The notes under the pieces are model-generated. The model made no database searches. It worked only from the letters and a program-made list of their open reading frames with translations, and had not been told where the DNA came from. Of a stretch of 64,000 bases of DNA, positions 40,360 through 49,138 are shown in pieces. Location of the stretch: contig NZ_AZAY01000016.1 in assembly GCF_001021165.1 (NCBI RefSeq), forward strand, positions 62,001 to 126,000, read 5' to 3'. Source of the DNA: Marinitoga sp. 1197 (GTDB lineage Bacteria; Thermotogota; Thermotogae; Petrotogales; Petrotogaceae). Each line of letters starts with the position of its first letter. Position 1 is the stretch's first letter. The position numbers were made by a program, and so were the translations under genes.

Positions 40360-42039
40360 ATGTATCAGGATAAAAAATTAATTGAAATTTCAGAGAAGAA
40401 GAAAAAATGGGAAGAAACAACCTTAAAAAAGACACTCGAAAGATTTCCAGAAAGAAAAAAACATTTTAAAACTACTTATAATGAAGAGGTAAAGCGTTTA
40501 TACACACCTGAAGACATTAAAAATATTGATTATTTAGAAGATATAGGATTTCCAGGGGAATATCCTTTTACTCGTGGCGTTCAACCTACAATGTATAGAG
40601 GAAGATTCTGGACAATGAGACAATATGCGGGTTTTGCTTCTGCTGAAGAATCCAATAAACGATATAAATATTTATTAGAACAGGGACAAACAGGTCTTTC
40701 AGTTGCTTTTGATTTACCTACTCAAATAGGATATGATTCAGATCATTCAATGTCAGAAGGTGAAGTGGGAAAAGTAGGCGTTGCTATAGACTCTTTAAAA
40801 GATATGGAAATACTTTTTGATGGTATACCTCTTGATAAAGTAAGTGTTTCTATGACTATTAATTCTACAGCTTCAATATTGCTCTCAATGTTAATAGCTG
40901 TTGCTGAAAAACAAGGGGTAGAACAAGAAAAGTTGAGAGGAACTATACAAAACGATATATTAAAAGAATATATAGCAAGAGGCACATATGTATTTCCTCC
41001 AGAACCTTCGATGAAAGTAATTGTAGATATATTTGAATATGGTTCCAAAAATCTCCCTAAATTTAATTTAATAAGTATAAGTGGATATCATATAAGAGAA
41101 GCTGGCGCAAATGCCGTTCAAGAAGTCGCATTTACATTAGCTGACGGATTGGCATATGTTGAAGCTGCTGTTAAAGCAGGGTTAGATCCAAATATATTTG
41201 GAAAAAATTTATCCTTTTTCTTCAATGCCCATAACAATTTTATTGAAGAAATTGCAAAATTCAGAGCTGCAAGAAAATTATGGGCTAAACTAATGAAAAA
41301 TAAATTTAATGTCACAAACCCTGCTGCATTAAGATTAAAATTTCACACTCAAACTGCAGGTTCCACATTAACTGCTCAACAACCTTTAAACAATATAATA
41401 AGAGTTACCTTGCAGGCTTTAGCCGCTGTTTTAGGTGGAACTCAATCACTGCATACGAATTCTTATGACGAAGCTCTTGGATTGCCTACGGAGTTATCTG
41501 CTACAATTGCTTTAAGAACACAACAAATAATAGCATATGAATCAGGGGTTACTGAAACAATAGATCCTTTTGCAGGATCATATGTTATAGAATCTTTAAC
41601 AAAAGACATTGAGGAAAAAGCTATGAAATATATAGAAAAAATTGAAGAAATGGGAGGAATGGTAAGAGCAATTGAAAATGGTTATGTTCAAAAAGAGATA
41701 TTAAATTCTGCTTATGAAACACAACTATCTATAGAAAATTCCGAACAGATTATTGTAGGATTAAATAAATTTACAGTAGAAGAAGAACATAACGGAACCA
41801 TTTTAAAAGTGGATCCTATCGTTGAAGAAAAACAAAAAGAAAAATTAAAAAATCTAAGAAAAGAAAGAAATAACGACGAAGTAAAGAAAAATCTGTTAAA
41901 ATTGGAAAATGCTGCAAAAAACAATGAAAATATTATGCCATATATTTTAGACGCAGTGAAATCATATGCTACATTGGGTGAAATCACAAATGTTTTAAGA
42001 GACGTCTTCGGCGAATACCACGAAGCTGTAATATTATAA
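40360..42039 (+). CDS. mcmA1: Methylmalonyl-CoA mutase, large (catalytic) subunit
   Basis: A 559-residue B12-dependent mutase interconverting succinyl-CoA and methylmalonyl-CoA. It has the TIM-barrel motifs [54 protein letters not shown] and [20 protein letters not shown]. It lacks the B12-binding domain, which is encoded separately just downstream, as in archaeal and Thermotogota types. GGAGG precedes the ATG. Five or six further genes of the same pathway follow. Confidence 0.96.
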
Positions 42040-42055
42040 CAAGGGAGGATTAAGG

Positions 42056-42454
42056 ATGAATAAAATAAGGGTATTGGTAGGAAAACCCGGTTTAGATGGT
42101 CATGATAGAGGAGCTAAGGTCGTTGCAAGAGCATTAAGAGACGCTGGAATGGAAGTTATATATACTGGAATAAGGCAAACTCCAGAAGATATTGTAAATA
42201 CAGCTTTAGAAGAAGATGTAAATATCATAGGATTATCAATACTATCAGGAGCACATATGAAATTATGCGAAAAAGTGTTGAAATTATTAAAAGAAAAAGA
42301 TGCAGATATTCCCGTATTTTTAGGTGGAATTATACCAGAAGATGACATACCAACTTTAAAAGAAATTGGGATTGTAGAAGTCTTTGGTCCTGGAACTCCA
42401 CTTGAAACAATAATCAGCAAGGTGAAAGAAATTGTATATTCAAAAAAAGCTTGA
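42056..42454 (+). CDS. mcmA2: Methylmalonyl-CoA mutase, cobalamin-binding subunit
   Basis: A 132-residue B12-binding domain. The DxHxxG motif appears as LDGHDRG near residue 15 (its His is the lower axial ligand), with GLSILSG and GGIIPEDD following. It is translated separately and must pair with the catalytic subunit upstream. GGGAGG precedes the ATG. It overlaps meaB by about 23 nt. Confidence 0.95.
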
Positions 42455-43364
42455 AAATATAATAGAAAAGTTCAAAAATGGTGAAAAATATGCTTTAGCA
42501 CAGGTAATATCCCTTGTAGAAAACAATATAAATTATGCCTGGGATATAATAAAACAACTTCCAAACCCCGAAAAAGATACACAAATAATAGGAATAACCG
42601 GAAGTCCTGGTGCTGGAAAAAGTACATTTTTATCAAAAGCTGTTAATGAATGGAGCAAAAATAATTTAAAAATAGGTATTATAGCTGTTGACCCATCAAG
42701 CCCATTTTCCGGTGGCGCTTTTCTTGGAGATAGAATACGTATGAGAAATTTGTCCGGTAAAAACAATGTTTACATAAGAAGTATAGCTTCTCGAGGCAGC
42801 GTTGGTGGTTTATGCGATTCAATATATGATATTGTAGATGTTATGAAATCATTTGGATTTGATAAAATAATTATAGAAACTGTTGGTGCAGGACAATCTG
42901 AAATAGAAGTAATATTTGTTGCAGATACTGTGCTCCTTGTTTTATCTCCAAATACCGGTGATGAAATACAGATGTTTAAAGCTGGAATAATGGAAATAGC
43001 TGATGCCTATATAATAAACAAAATGGATTTACCAGAAGCTGATAAATTTATTTTACAATTGAAAAACACATTATCTCTGGAAAATGAATATAAATCAAAA
43101 ATCATATTACCTGTTAGCGCTATACAAAACAAAGGTATTATAGAAAGCATAAATTGGATTGATACACATTTTAATGAATTAAAAAATTCAGGCGAATATG
43201 AATATAGAAAAAAAAGAAGAATAAAAAGAAGAGTTAGAAGCTCTATTATAAGAAATATAGATAATATAATAGATGACTCAAATATAGAATTTGAAAATAT
43301 AAAAGATTACAAAGAAAAAATAATGAAATATATATGTGAGGAGGAAAAAAATGAAAAAGATTGA
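42432..43364 (+). CDS. meaB: MeaB/ArgK-type GTPase, methylmalonyl-CoA mutase chaperone
   Basis: A 310-residue G3E GTPase that guards and reloads cobalamin in the mutase. The P-loop [39 protein letters not shown] and [10 protein letters not shown] motifs are present. The TTG start at 42432 lies inside mcmA2 and follows AAGGTG at proper spacing. Confidence 0.94.
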
Positions 43365-43749
43365 TCATATTGGAATTGCAGTAAAATCCATTGATAAAGC
43401 TTTAAATTTATATAAAAATTTATTAAATTTAGAAATAACAGGAGAAGAAATTCTTGAAAATAGAGGATTAAAGGTCGTTTTTATAAAAGCTGGTGATACA
43501 AGAATAGAATTATTAGAGCCTTTGCATGAAAATTCTGAAATTTCTGGATTTTTAAATAAAAAAGGCGAAGGAATACATCATATAGCATACGAAGTGGAAA
43601 ATGCCAGTGAAATGATAAAGAAATCAAAAGAATTGGGAATAAAACCTTTAAGTGACGAACCAAAAGATGGTGCTCATAACACAAAAGTTGTTTTTTTACA
43701 TCCAAAAACAACAAATGGCGTATTAGTTGAATTAGTTGAACATAAATAG
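43351..43749 (+). CDS. mce: Methylmalonyl-CoA epimerase
   Basis: A 132-residue vicinal-oxygen-chelate protein interconverting the R and S forms of methylmalonyl-CoA. Metal ligands are in [22 protein letters not shown] and LVELVEH. The ATG at 43351 follows GAGGAGG; it starts inside the end of meaB. Confidence 0.94.
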   Translation: MKKIDHIGIAVKSIDKALNLYKNLLNLEITGEEILENRGLKVVFIKAGDTRIELLEPLHENSEISGFLNKKGEGIHHIAYEVENASEMIKKSKELGIKPLSDEPKDGAHNTKVVFLHPKTTNGVLVELVEHK

Positions 43750-43786
43750 TATAATAAATATAATACTCTTGAAGGGAGTGTAATAA

Positions 43787-45340
43787 ATGGATGAGAAGTT
43801 TCAAGAAATATACGAAGAATTCTTAAAAAGAAAAGAAAAGTTATATGAAGGTGGCGGAGAAACAAAAATAGAAAAACAACACAAACTCGGCAAGTTAACT
43901 GCAAGGGAAAGAATCGAATTATTGGTGGATAAAGGGTCATTTGTTGAAACGGATTTATTTGTAAAACACAGAAGCACAAACTTTGGTCTTGACAAAAAAA
44001 TATTTCCATATGATGGAGTAATAACAGGCATCGGAACAATTAATGGTCAGAAAATTGCAATATATTCTCAGGATTTTACCGTTCAAGGTGGTTCTCTTGG
44101 AGAGATGCATGCAAAAAAAATTATGAAAATTCAGGATATGGCTATGAAATATGGAATTCCAATTATTGGAATTAATGATTCTGGAGGTGCAAGAATACAG
44201 GAAGGCGTCGACTCACTATACGGATATGGTGGAATATTTTATAGAAACACCTTAGCATCTGGAGTTATTCCACAAATCACAATAATTGCAGGACCTTGTG
44301 CTGGTGGTGCTGTATATTCTCCAGCAATCACCGATTTTATTATAATGGTCGACAATACATCGCAAATGTTCATAACTGGACCTCAGGTAATAAAAGCTGT
44401 TACAGGTGAAAATGTTGATAAAAACCAACTTGGCGGCGCTATGGCTCATAATGCAAAAAGCGGTGTTGCTCATTTTATTGCAGAATCAGATGAGGATGCT
44501 ATGAATATAGCCAAAAAACTCTTATCATACATTCCTTCTAACAATTTAGAGACTCCAGAAGATTTTGATTTTGATAATAATTTTGATTTACCTGAAAAGA
44601 TTTATGAAATAGTATCTCCAAATCCAAAAAAAGGATATGATATTAGAGATATTTTAAATCTGGTGTTAGATAAAAATTCTTTCTTTGAAGTGCATAAATA
44701 CTATGCCACAAATATAGTTGTGGGATTTGGTAGATTAGGAGGAAAAAGTGTTGGAATAATTGCTAACCAACCAAAGGTATTAGCTGGAGCTTTAGACATA
44801 AATTCTTCAGATAAAGCTGCAAGATTTATAAGATTCTGTGATGCGTTTAATATTCCTATTATTACATTTGTGGATACTCCGGGATTCTTACCAGGTGTTG
44901 GTCAGGAACATGGAGGAATAATCAGACATGGAGCTAAATTATTATATTCATATAGTGAAGCAACTGTACCAAAATTGACCGTGATTTTAAGAAAAGCTTA
45001 CGGGGGCGCTTATATAGCCATGGCATCTCAACATATAGGGTCTGATTTTGTATTTGCATGGCCAACTGCAGAAATTGCTGTTATGGGATCAGAAGGAGCA
45101 GCGAATATTATATTCAGAAAAGATATACAAAATTCGGAAAATCCAGAAAAAACAAGAATGGAAAAAATTGAAGAATATAAAAAAGAATTTGCAAATCCTT
45201 ATGTTGCAGCTGGAAGAGGTTATATAGAAGATGTTATAGATCCAAAAGAAACCAGAAAAGTTTTAATTCAAACATTATATATATCTGAATCAAAAGCTGA
45301 ACCAAGACCAAATAAAAAACATGGAAATATTCCATTATAA
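43787..45340 (+). CDS. mmdA: Methylmalonyl-CoA decarboxylase alpha / propionyl-CoA carboxylase beta-type carboxyltransferase
   Basis: A 517-residue carboxyltransferase with crotonase-fold halves. The GINDSGGARIQEGVDSL, IAGPCAGGAVYSPAITDF and VDTPGFLPGVGQEHGGIIRHGAK motifs are diagnostic. It moves a carboxyl group between methylmalonyl-CoA and biotin. With a delta/gamma membrane subunit and biotin carrier following, a Na+-pumping decarboxylase is likely; the same protein family also serves in biotin-dependent carboxylases. GAGTG-type site upstream. Confidence 0.92.
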   Translation: MDEKFQEIYEEFLKRKEKLYEGGGETKIEKQHKLGKLTARERIELLVDKGSFVETDLFVKHRSTNFGLDKKIFPYDGVITGIGTINGQKIAIYSQDFTVQGGSLGEMHAKKIMKIQDMAMKYGIPIIGINDSGGARIQEGVDSLYGYGGIFYRNTLASGVIPQITIIAGPCAGGAVYSPAITDFIIMVDNTSQMFITGPQVIKAVTGENVDKNQLGGAMAHNAKSGVAHFIAESDEDAMNIAKKLLSYIPSNNLETPEDFDFDNNFDLPEKIYEIVSPNPKKGYDIRDILNLVLDKNSFFEVHKYYATNIVVGFGRLGGKSVGIIANQPKVLAGALDINSSDKAARFIRFCDAFNIPIITFVDTPGFLPGVGQEHGGIIRHGAKLLYSYSEATVPKLTVILRKAYGGAYIAMASQHIGSDFVFAWPTAEIAVMGSEGAANIIFRKDIQNSENPEKTRMEKIEEYKKEFANPYVAAGRGYIEDVIDPKETRKVLIQTLYISESKAEPRPNKKHGNIPL

Positions 45341-45354
45341 ATGGTGGTGTTATT

Positions 45355-45723
45355 ATGAATAATGTTTTGTCAATTACTCTTGTTGGAATAGTTATAGTTT
45401 TTCTTGTATTGTTTATATTAAGTATGTTTTTTATATTTTTCAAATTTTTATCTCCATCAAATGAAAGAAAAGTAAAAAAGGAAATAAACATGCCTCATAC
45501 AAACCCAAAACCTGTTGAAGATAAAAATATTATCAACATTAATGATGATGAAGAAATAGTTGCTGCTATAATGGGAGCAATATCGATGATTATGGAAAAC
45601 AAAAAATTTAAGATAAAAAGCATTCAAGAAACTACATTATCACAAAGAAAAAATAAAAGCATGTGGGGAGTATTACCATCTGCTATTACCTGGAGAGCAA
45701 AAAGATTAGGAGGGAGAAAATGA
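45355..45723 (+). CDS. mmdD: OadG/MmdD-type small membrane subunit
   Basis: A 122-residue protein with one N-terminal transmembrane helix (about 6-32), a charged linker and a conserved C-terminus ending SMWGVLPSAITWRAKRLGG, in keeping with the gamma/delta subunit of sodium-pumping decarboxylases. It helps assemble the membrane pump. It overlaps the carrier gene by 4 nt (ATGA). Confidence 0.85.
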   Translation: MNNVLSITLVGIVIVFLVLFILSMFFIFFKFLSPSNERKVKKEINMPHTNPKPVEDKNIININDDEEIVAAIMGAISMIMENKKFKIKSIQETTLSQRKNKSMWGVLPSAITWRAKRLGGRK

Positions 45724-46133
45724 TAAGAAAGTTTAATGTTAAGGTAAATGGAAAAAATTATGCAGTGGAAGTAGAAGAATTAGAAAATAACAGTACCGCA
45801 TCTCAACCTGCACCACAACCTGTTGCTCAGCCACCTGTACAATCTGCACCAATATCAAGGCCAGCACCAGAGCCTACACCTGTTATGCAAAAACAAAAAC
45901 ATACATCTGTATCTGACGGAAAAAATGTTGTAAAAGCTCCATTACCTGGTGTTGTCGTAGATATAAATATTGCTGAAGGTAATAGAGTATCAAAAGGGCA
46001 AAAACTATTGGTAATAGAAGCTATGAAAATGGAAAACGAAATATTAAGTGATTATGATGGCGTTGTTGAAAAAATACTTGTTAAGAAAGGTGACAGTATA
46101 GAAGGGGATCAAGATTTAATTATAATTTCATAA
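45720..46133 (+). CDS. mmdC: Biotin carboxyl carrier protein
   Basis: A 137-residue carrier: N-terminal region of about 25 residues, a Pro/Ala/Gln-rich flexible linker, and a C-terminal biotinyl domain with EAMKMEN (biotinylated Lys). The ATG at 45720 follows AGGAGGGAG. Last gene of the cluster before a strong terminator. Confidence 0.94.
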   Translation: MIRKFNVKVNGKNYAVEVEELENNSTASQPAPQPVAQPPVQSAPISRPAPEPTPVMQKQKHTSVSDGKNVVKAPLPGVVVDINIAEGNRVSKGQKLLVIEAMKMENEILSDYDGVVEKILVKKGDSIEGDQDLIIIS

Positions 46134-46339: not shown

Positions 46340-46834
46340 TTAAATTAAAAAACGAATGAAAATATTTATACTATATATTAAGCTAAAAATTATAACGTAA
46401 TACAATTTTTTATTCTTTAATTCGTCAGAAAATAAAAAGACCATAACCACTATTCCAACAAAATTGGTAACCAAAAACAATAAATAAGAATTTATTTTAA
46501 TACCTAAAAATAAAATTCCAATTAGCAAAGACATAATATAGCTTATCAATATTCCAATTGATAATTTTAATTCATTTATGCTTATACTCAAAAATTTAAA
46601 AATTATTTTATTTAAAAATATTCCGATTATAAACGAAAGAAAAAACACAAATAATGCAAGAAATATAATCAAGATATTTAAAAACGAAATATTTATATCT
46701 ATACTTTTAGATAAGTCGACAATAATTTTTTTTATTGAGATGTTTTTCTGAAAATATTCAAAAACAAAAGATACAAAAATATATGACGCACCTATATAAG
46801 TTATTAAAAAGTATATATGTTCTTTTTTAATCAT
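46340..46834 (-). CDS. Small membrane protein of the circular-bacteriocin cluster
   Basis: A 164-residue, very hydrophobic protein with about four transmembrane segments and basic short loops. I recognise no family by eye; it may correspond to a SpoIIM/DUF95-like component or to the immunity protein of circular-bacteriocin clusters, both of which are membrane proteins of similar type. AAGGAAGGG lies upstream of the ATG, and it overlaps the ATPase gene by 8 nt. It is the last gene of the cluster. Confidence 0.7.
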   Translation of the reverse strand: MIKKEHIYFLITYIGASYIFVSFVFEYFQKNISIKKIIVDLSKSIDINISFLNILIIFLALFVFFLSFIIGIFLNKIIFKFLSISINELKLSIGILISYIMSLLIGILFLGIKINSYLLFLVTNFVGIVVMVFLFSDELKNKKLYYVIIFSLIYSINIFIRFLI

Positions 46835-47420
46835 AAAACATCCCTTCCTTTTTTAAAGTTAATTCAATAAAATTATAGCTATTTAAATTCCCATGATAAG
46901 TAAATATTACTATAGTTCTTTCTGAACTTCTTTGGTTTAACTCGGCAAATAAAATATTCTGTGTTTTTAAATCCAGATGAGAAATCGCCTCATCAATAAT
47001 AATCATGTCCCACATATTTGGTATAAAAATAAGAGAAAAAATTGTTTTTAAATTTGTTCCAACTGATGCTTTATATGGAAATATGGAGGCATCTTCTATA
47101 TTCAACTTTTTTAAAACTTTTTCAATAAAATCTTTCCTAATATTTATACTATGATAAAACATAAATAATTCAATATTTTCTTTTAATGTTAACCAATTCT
47201 CATTTAATGAAAATTCTGGAATATACAATATTCTTTTTAAGTTATTTTTATATATTCCTCCACTAAATTTTTCAATGTTCGAAATACATCTAAGAAACAC
47301 ACTTTTCCCAATTCCATTTTCTCCTTTTAACCAGTATATGTTATTATAAAAAACATAAGAGATATTTTCAAAAATTATTTTTTCTCCATATTTTTTATAA
47401 CAATTTTTAAGTTCAAGCAT
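46827..47420 (-). CDS. ABC transporter ATPase of the circular-bacteriocin cluster
   Basis: A 197-residue nucleotide-binding subunit. Walker A is GENGIGKS (33-40), Walker B MIIIDE (139-144), D-loop SHLD and H-loop His in TYHG (about 176). The LSGGQ signature is absent: its place holds SVGTNLK (about 119-125). It is slightly short for an ABC ATPase. The start at 47420 is preferred over 47441 for its GGAGG and family N-terminus. Circular bacteriocin clusters regularly carry such an ATPase for export and self-protection. Confidence 0.88.
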   Translation of the reverse strand: MLELKNCYKKYGEKIIFENISYVFYNNIYWLKGENGIGKSVFLRCISNIEKFSGGIYKNNLKRILYIPEFSLNENWLTLKENIELFMFYHSINIRKDFIEKVLKKLNIEDASIFPYKASVGTNLKTIFSLIFIPNMWDMIIIDEAISHLDLKTQNILFAELNQRSSERTIVIFTYHGNLNSYNFIELTLKKEGMFYD

Positions 47421-47445
47421 TCTATCTGATCCTCCTAGCATATAC

Positions 47446-48015
47446 TCACCTTTTTCTTAATTTAAGCACATAAAAAGATATTAATTTGTGAATGTTGAAT
47501 ATATATAAAAATACCAGAAATGCAAGTTTAAAAAATTCACCATATATTTTATTATAAAAAGATATTTTCAAAAAAATATTATTATACATATCTGGAATCA
47601 AAAAGATTATTATTACATATATTACAAAAATAATCAGAAAAAAATGATTTATTTTTTTTCTAAACTCAAAAGATTTATAATGAATGAAAATATAAATTTT
47701 AATTATATACCATACAAGTAAAATTAGATTTATAAAAAATAATAGAATGTAGATACTTAAATCTTTAGAAATTAATACAAAAATAAAAAATAAAAATATA
47801 ATAGCAGTAAAAAAAAGCCCTATTTTAAATTCATACGAATTTAAAATCCAGTATTTATATGGATACTTTGTGGTTTTGAAAAATGCATATTTGCTATATA
47901 AAACCTCAAAGTTTAACTGTTTTTCTTCTAAAATTAATTCTAATTCAGCCATCAAAAAAATCATTAAAAAATATTCAGCAATATACATATTAAAGAAATA
48001 ATATGTTATAATCAT
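47446..48015 (-). CDS. Membrane protein of the circular-bacteriocin cluster (possible second half of a split gene)
   Basis: A 189-residue protein with about five transmembrane helices, no recognised domain. The ATG at 48015 overlaps the preceding stop (ATGA) and has no ribosome binding site. A run of seven T lies just before it on the coding strand, so it may be joined to the upstream ORF by frameshifting or be a broken half of one gene. The fused length of roughly 420-440 residues would fit the large membrane proteins of such clusters. Confidence 0.65.
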   Translation of the reverse strand: MIITYYFFNMYIAEYFLMIFLMAELELILEEKQLNFEVLYSKYAFFKTTKYPYKYWILNSYEFKIGLFFTAIIFLFFIFVLISKDLSIYILLFFINLILLVWYIIKIYIFIHYKSFEFRKKINHFFLIIFVIYVIIIFLIPDMYNNIFLKISFYNKIYGEFFKLAFLVFLYIFNIHKLISFYVLKLRKR

Positions 48016-48710
48016 ACCAAAAAAACAAATATAAATTCAACATATTCACTTATTGGATATCTTTCAAAAAAAAGCCTTAAAGAAATCAATGGATTCATTT
48101 CCTTTTTTAGATAAAAATCTTTTTCAGAATACTTTTTATTATTAATAATAATTTCTTTAAATTGCGAAAACCATGTTTGATATAAAAATAAAATATTGAT
48201 GATAATAACAGGGATTAAGAATAATATTTTTATCTTCAATATATATACTAAAACATATATAAAAAGAAGTGAAAACAAGATATATTTTATTTTTTTAGTA
48301 TATACTTTTATAAAAAGATATGTAATCTGAAATAAAAAATTAATTGCTAAAAATACTATCTTTTCATATTGATGTAAATATAATAAAAATAATATTATAT
48401 TCGAAATTATATATACACTAATAAAAGGATTCATTCTTAAAAATGTGAAAACAATAAATTTGACTGCCGTTTTTTTAGAGGTTAAGTAGTGTAAATTTCT
48501 GTATTGTTTGAAATAAGTTATAATATTGGGATAGTTGTAATGAACCAATAAAAACGAAAAAAATAAAACACTTATAAATGAATTTCTATTAAAAAAGAAA
48601 ACATATATAAATAAAGAACCTATAATCATAAATATATATATATAACAATAAATAAAAGAATTTATAAATACATCTTTAACTATCTTAAAATTATCAATCC
48701 AGTATTTCAT
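48012..48710 (-). CDS. Membrane protein of the circular-bacteriocin cluster (first of two)
   Basis: About 232 residues with around six transmembrane segments; the C-terminus has KKEMNPLISLRLFFERYP, a pattern that recalls ABC-2-type export permeases (weak). No family is recognised with certainty. The start is uncertain: AAGGAGGAG at 48729-48737 is 18 bases before the ATG at 48710, longer than usual, while an ATG at 48764 lies inside the terminator hairpin with no ribosome site. A non-AUG start between them cannot be excluded. Confidence 0.65.
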   Translation of the reverse strand: MKYWIDNFKIVKDVFINSFIYCYIYIFMIIGSLFIYVFFFNRNSFISVLFFSFLLVHYNYPNIITYFKQYRNLHYLTSKKTAVKFIVFTFLRMNPFISVYIISNIILFLLYLHQYEKIVFLAINFLFQITYLFIKVYTKKIKYILFSLLFIYVLVYILKIKILFLIPVIIINILFLYQTWFSQFKEIIINNKKYSEKDFYLKKEMNPLISLRLFFERYPISEYVEFIFVFLV

Positions 48711-48738
48711 AAGTAATTTGATATTTATCTCCTCCTTA

Positions 48739-48775
48739 AAAAAAGAAGAATGATTATTAATCATTCTTCTTTTTT
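48739..48775 (-). terminator. Terminator/attenuator after the bacteriocin structural gene
   Basis: A 17-bp perfect stem (aaaaaagaagaatgatt and its inverse) with a 3-nt loop. On the minus strand it starts 17 bases past the bacteriocin stop and ends in six T, directly followed by the ribosome binding site of the next gene. It would let most transcripts stop after the bacteriocin gene while some continue into the transporter genes. Confidence 0.82.
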
Positions 48776-48791
48776 GATTACAAAAATCAAA

Positions 48792-49064
48792 TTACCACAT
48801 GGTTGCGTATTTTTTCCCATACTTTTTAATCATTTTTTTTGCAACTGCTACTATTCCAGCTGTAATAGCCTCCGTTCCAATAATTGCTGTGACTATTGAA
48901 ATAATAGTTGCGATAGTTGAAAATGTATCAATAATATCTATAACTTTTTTTGCTGCATATGTTGAAATTCCAAGCATGGAAGCCAAATTCAGAGGTGAAA
49001 AAACAAAAAATACAATAAAATTAAAAGCTATAATACTTACTGCAAGAAATACAATTTTTTTCAC
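48792..49064 (-). CDS. Circular bacteriocin precursor, uberolysin/AS-48-like
   Basis: A 90-residue peptide: a hydrophobic leader (about 1-26, MKKIVFLAVS ... SPLN) and a mature part of about 64 residues starting LASMLGIS at Leu27 and ending YATMW at Trp90. Residues 38-46 (AKKVIDIID) and the IISIVTAIIG stretch match the known uberolysin sequence as I remember it, and Leu-first/Trp-last is the same head-to-tail ligation pair. The mature part is helical, with basic residues clustered near the end (KKMIKKYGKK; about +5 net), as in AS-48. The start is GTG at 49064 after GGAGGG. Export and immunity-type genes follow. Antimicrobial activity is inferred. Confidence 0.88.
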   Translation of the reverse strand: MKKIVFLAVSIIAFNFIVFFVFSPLNLASMLGISTYAAKKVIDIIDTFSTIATIISIVTAIIGTEAITAGIVAVAKKMIKKYGKKYATMW

Positions 49065-49109
49065 AAAATCCCTCCCTTTTGATAAATTTACATACTTTGA
49101 AATAATAAT

Positions 49110-49138
49110 TTTATATAATTCCGATTTGATGTTATCAA
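49110..49138 (-). promoter_or_regulatory. Promoter of the circular-bacteriocin cluster
   Basis: On the minus strand TTGATA (49133-49138) and TATAAA (49110-49115) are separated by 17 bases, with a long T run just upstream of the -35. An 18-bp AT palindrome at 49199-49216 lies further upstream and could be an operator or chance. Confidence 0.65.

Follow-up and report, generated by a model that had tools for sequence, protein, structure and literature searches.

Marinitoga sp. 1197 carries, within the 64,000-nucleotide stretch of DNA analysed here (the window; contig NZ_AZAY01000016.1, positions 62,001 to 126,000), what we read, with a probability of about 0.8, as an acquired circular-bacteriocin gene cluster of the enterocin NKR-5-3B type (subgroup I, long-leader) in a member of the Thermotogota, recently disabled for maturation and export but probably retaining its immunity genes. 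The first-pass annotation of this DNA described the cluster as complete. It is not, because a frameshift at a T7 tract divides gene B in two and gene C, encoding a SpoIIM/DUF95 protein, has been deleted and is absent from the whole genome. The features of the locus are as follows.

48792-49064, minus strand: gene A, circular-bacteriocin precursor of 90 aa with a GTG start (matches to PF09221, TIGR03651 and PDB 2mp8)
48795-48986, minus strand: part of gene A that encodes the predicted core peptide, residues Leu27-Trp90 (aligned without gaps to the NKR-5-3B core, which has the same terminal residues)
48739-48775, minus strand: 18-bp perfect hairpin ending in a T run, between A and B (inverted repeat; -18.5 kcal/mol, z -4.07)
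48012-48764, minus strand: 5' half of gene B, 250 aa, ended early by the frameshift (aligned to residues 2-243 of the undivided B in congener G002 at 64% identity)
48019-48025, minus strand: T7 tract where the reading frame of B breaks (in the DNA alignment, one base different in length from both congeners)
47446-48015, minus strand: 3' half of gene B, 189 aa, in the shifted frame (63% identity to residues 247-433 of the G002 B)
47420-47448, minus strand: deletion scar where gene C is missing (DNA alignment and junction comparison with congeners)
46827-47420, minus strand: gene D, ABC ATPase of 197 aa with Walker A and B motifs (PF00005, 1.2e-6)
46340-46834, minus strand: gene E, hydrophobic cationic membrane protein of 164 aa, probable immunity protein (position, pI 9.6, GRAVY 1.40)

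The predicted product of gene A consists of a hydrophobic leader (residues 1-26) and a 64-residue core, Leu27-Trp90, with a net charge of +5 and a predicted circular mass of ~6791 Da. It matches Pfam PF09221 far beyond chance (E 4.6e-22, 78.4 bits; cut-off 23.6) and NCBIfam TIGR03651 (E 4.6e-16, 58.9 bits; curated cut-off 30.7), and its residues 28-90 align ungapped with enterocin NKR-5-3B (PDB 2mp8; E 4.5e-20). Core against core, 43 of 64 residues are identical (67%), again ungapped, and the terminal Leu and Trp agree with those of NKR-5-3B. Because two curated profiles and ungapped homology to a solved circular bacteriocin coincide, the 90-residue peptide is identified, on sequence grounds, as a circular-bacteriocin precursor, in agreement with the first-pass annotation, which had also placed the core at Leu27-Trp90. 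As for the likeness to uberolysin proposed at the same time, the AKKVIDIID segment is present and mostly conserved among relatives, and uberolysin and circularin A share the TIGR03651 subfamily and PF09221 with the window precursor. However, the closest known peptide is NKR-5-3B, which among solved structures is nearer to the window precursor than either of these two, and the leaders of uberolysin and circularin A are very short (MDILLE and MFL, respectively; PMC10028692), unlike that of the window. The core of enterocin AS-48 also ends in Trp but resembles the window core only weakly in sequence (phmmer 0.0012 to 4rgd), has 70 residues and belongs to a larger gene cluster.

There is next to no chance that A is an unrelated hydrophobic membrane peptide that is bacteriocin-like by composition only. 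Hydrophobic helices encoded by AT-rich DNA can produce chance matches, and fold modeling, aimed at the saposin-like helix bundle proposed in the first-pass annotation, is uninformative: AlphaFold2 gave an all-helical precursor with a mean pLDDT of 55-56, from an input alignment of only six sequences, and a second run on the core alone likewise gave a pLDDT of ~55, neither having a usable PDB match. Against this stand the scores of both curated profiles, far above their cut-offs, the identity of the core to a solved circular bacteriocin, the 30 positions that are invariant in six aligned precursor sequences and the typical neighbor genes in five relatives. A composition-only resemblance was thus excluded at the sequence level.

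A precursor search across 41 genomes found the gene in the window genome and in two congeners (G002 and G006), and, among 103 genomes of the phylum, a precursor profile turned up one further genus (G007), whose precursor is of a different type. The NKR-5-3B-type cluster occurs in three of the seven genomes of the genus Marinitoga. A scan of genome contigs identified further close relatives in Enterococcus thailandicus, a Clostridium and a Ruminococcus metagenome-assembled genome. A sub-threshold PF09221 match in G015 (18.8 bits, within a 401-codon open frame) was taken as chance. The five loci outside the window share the order A-B-C-D-E, in which A is the precursor, B a large membrane protein, C the SpoIIM/DUF95 protein, D an ABC ATPase and E a small cationic membrane protein; in all five, B (379-443 aa) and C (149-175 aa) are intact. 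The Pfam SpoIIM profile matches C of G006 (4.2e-5), Enterococcus (4.7e-4) and G002 (0.0023), none reaching the curated cut-off, and by hhalign the C proteins of the Thermotogota, Clostridium and Ruminococcus are related to that of Enterococcus with 99.5% probability. No periplasmic or outer-membrane component, such as might take the peptide across the outer sheath of Thermotogota, is obvious in any of these Thermotogota clusters. The G006 precursor (L008:11237-11440) has a four-residue core insertion, an IISI repeat, and would give a 68-residue ring if processed alike. The predicted ring masses are ~7164 Da for G006 and ~6735 Da for G002.

The NKR-5-3B locus of Enterococcus (enkB and B1-B4; L004) resembles the window in its 64-residue core of net charge +5, in its long, hydrophobic leader (23 aa, against 26 aa in the window) and in gene order, and the D proteins are homologous (28% identity to the Enterococcus D; hhalign 3.9e-36 for the family). 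The window B and E have no recognizable sequence similarity to the Enterococcus proteins; a further difference is that, in the window, B is split and the SpoIIM gene C is missing. The congeneric clusters (L007 in G002, L008 in G006) have the same order and a similarly low GC content, with identities to the window proteins of 71-77% for A, ~60-64% for B, 74-76% for D and 61-66% for E; they differ in having a whole B, a retained C and other flanking chromosomal genes.

In both congeners, B is a single ORF of ~430-440 aa. The window ORFs at 48012-48764 and 47446-48015, which overlap as ATGA, are, by their alignment to the intact gene, two halves of one gene B. The first-pass annotation had counted three membrane proteins and an ABC ATPase behind the precursor; the minus-strand ORFs and the ATPase stand, but the first two membrane proteins are the halves of B and the third is E. 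Gene C, of 161-165 aa in the congeners, sits there between B and D. In the window, ~0.5 kb of unique sequence has been deleted at this point, and the scar joins a relic of a start codon to the ribosome-binding site of D. No second copy was found: PF01944 (SpoIIM/DUF95), a profile that is weak for this branch of C, has no matches in the genome, and the congener C used as a protein query finds none on any contig, whereas the same query recovers the genes of G006 and G002.

Genes D and E of the window are intact open reading frames. Within the genus, E occurs solely in the three genomes that bear the cluster; it lacks a Pfam match and shows no detectable profile match to the Enterococcus E. Its position and properties make it a probable immunity protein. 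The hairpin between A and B is probably a partial terminator or attenuator, setting expression of the precursor above that of the other genes. Its stem recurs in G002 with paired changes, and the hairpin is missing in G006. A promoter scan gave a signal equal to that of shuffled controls.

The genes that flank the cluster in the window are ~3.1 kb apart; in G004 and G003, where the cluster is absent, the matches to these genes are convergent and separated by 88 and 70 bp, respectively. The clusters of G002 and G006 sit between other genes than in the window, and the GC content of the cluster, 20.1% against 27.8% for the window, is equally low in the congener clusters. The empty site in G003 and G004, the different congener neighbors and the low GC content together suggest that transfer brought clusters into separate sites. 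We recognized no mobile element at the cluster, and tblastn of the precursor against plasmid and phage collections returned nothing at E 1e-3, which speaks weakly against an origin from a plasmid or phage, as the query is short and low-complexity-filtered. On ORF reading, the adjoining region (40360-46133) appears to be an operon for methylmalonyl-CoA mutase, epimerase, decarboxylase and biotin carrier. The biotin-carrier gene beside the empty site in G003 (G003:C17:24392-24583) matches over residues 60-123 only and is perhaps truncated or affected by a sequencing fault.

In intact relatives, A would be synthesized with its hydrophobic leader and cut before the Leu that matches Leu27, after which this Leu would close the ring with the terminal Trp. 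B and D are assumed to act together as an ABC exporter, which would also confer partial immunity; C would be required for production or secretion, and E is taken as the immunity protein. A SpoIIM/DUF95 gene is present in every reported circular-bacteriocin cluster (PMC6131525, PMC8534725), and enkB and B1-B4 are indispensable for NKR-5-3B production and immunity (PMC6131525). Given this need for enkB, B1-B4 and DUF95 in the literature, we infer from the broken B and the deleted C that the window strain makes little or no mature secreted ring. Since the motifs of D are kept and E is open, and since immunity in relatives is determined by an ABC pair and a small cationic protein, the window strain may still be immune; D and E may have been kept as protection against the bacteriocin of neighboring strains.

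Selection on the cluster genes bears on this reading. Pairwise dN/dS on the window branch is ~0.2-0.3 for every gene, the two halves of B among them, which indicates purifying selection; the relaxed selection that would mark pseudogene decay is seen in no cluster gene. Either the lesions therefore arose recently or B, though split, has kept part of its function. These values count against a disabled cluster and favor one that is functional as it is, with B acting as two polypeptides or through slippage and C dispensable or replaced. The break itself leaves room for this, since the T7 tract lies within a heptamer permitting possible -1 slippage and the ATGA overlap would suit a B in two parts; moreover, a DUF95 knock-out of leucocyclicin Q still formed its ring, which was left inside the cell (PMC6131525), so circularization may not need C. 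However, although a -1 slip or a two-piece B is possible, neither restores C, and the presence of SpoIIM/DUF95 in all reported clusters, the intact B and C of all five related loci and the failure to find a second SpoIIM gene in the genome make a functional cluster unlikely. It is more doubtful still, and would be a very improbable outcome, that this diderm thermophile makes and releases a ring although it lacks any SpoIIM/DUF95 protein and its large membrane protein comes as two parts; if true, ring release without DUF95 would overturn the view of DUF95 as universal and needed.

Sequencing error could account for the frameshift, as the frame break lies in a homopolymer and the genome is a 51-contig draft, and the real cluster might then be complete, both lesions being assembly or sequencing artifacts. 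The deletion is harder to explain in this way: it removes unique sequence, its clean scar keeps the ribosome-binding site of D, and C lies on no other contig of a genome with a completeness of 99.98%. An artifact is thus quite improbable, and a recently disabled cluster remains our preferred reading, although the role of E in it is assigned from position and properties.

A parallel case occurs in G007, from another genus of the family, which contains a different and complete circular-bacteriocin cluster (L015:12348-16144) with a 74-aa precursor, a SpoIIM gene (E 7.6e-19) and an ATPase. Nine kilobases from it lies a decayed duplicate (L015:3088-4118), whose pieces are 97% identical; A is partly lost, B, C and D are mostly gone, and the two distal small ORFs are nearly intact. 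The family may thus repeatedly lose production genes while keeping distal genes, perhaps those for immunity, although two cases are too few to claim it.

A precursor from this phylum is no novelty, since Xin et al. 2020 had already listed one Thermotogae precursor (PMC8534725); circular-bacteriocin clusters had been described in 2014 from Caldicellulosiruptor, likewise an inhabitant of extreme environments (PMC4289311). The present analysis confirms circular bacteriocins of the NKR-5-3B type in the Thermotogota and adds a second type in another genus. Intact relatives, for example those of G002 and G006, are well suited as sources of rings that may be heat-stable. The window strain, in turn, which lacks DUF95 and has a broken B, is a natural mutant in which the role of DUF95 could be probed, and a candidate case of immunity retained after the loss of production.
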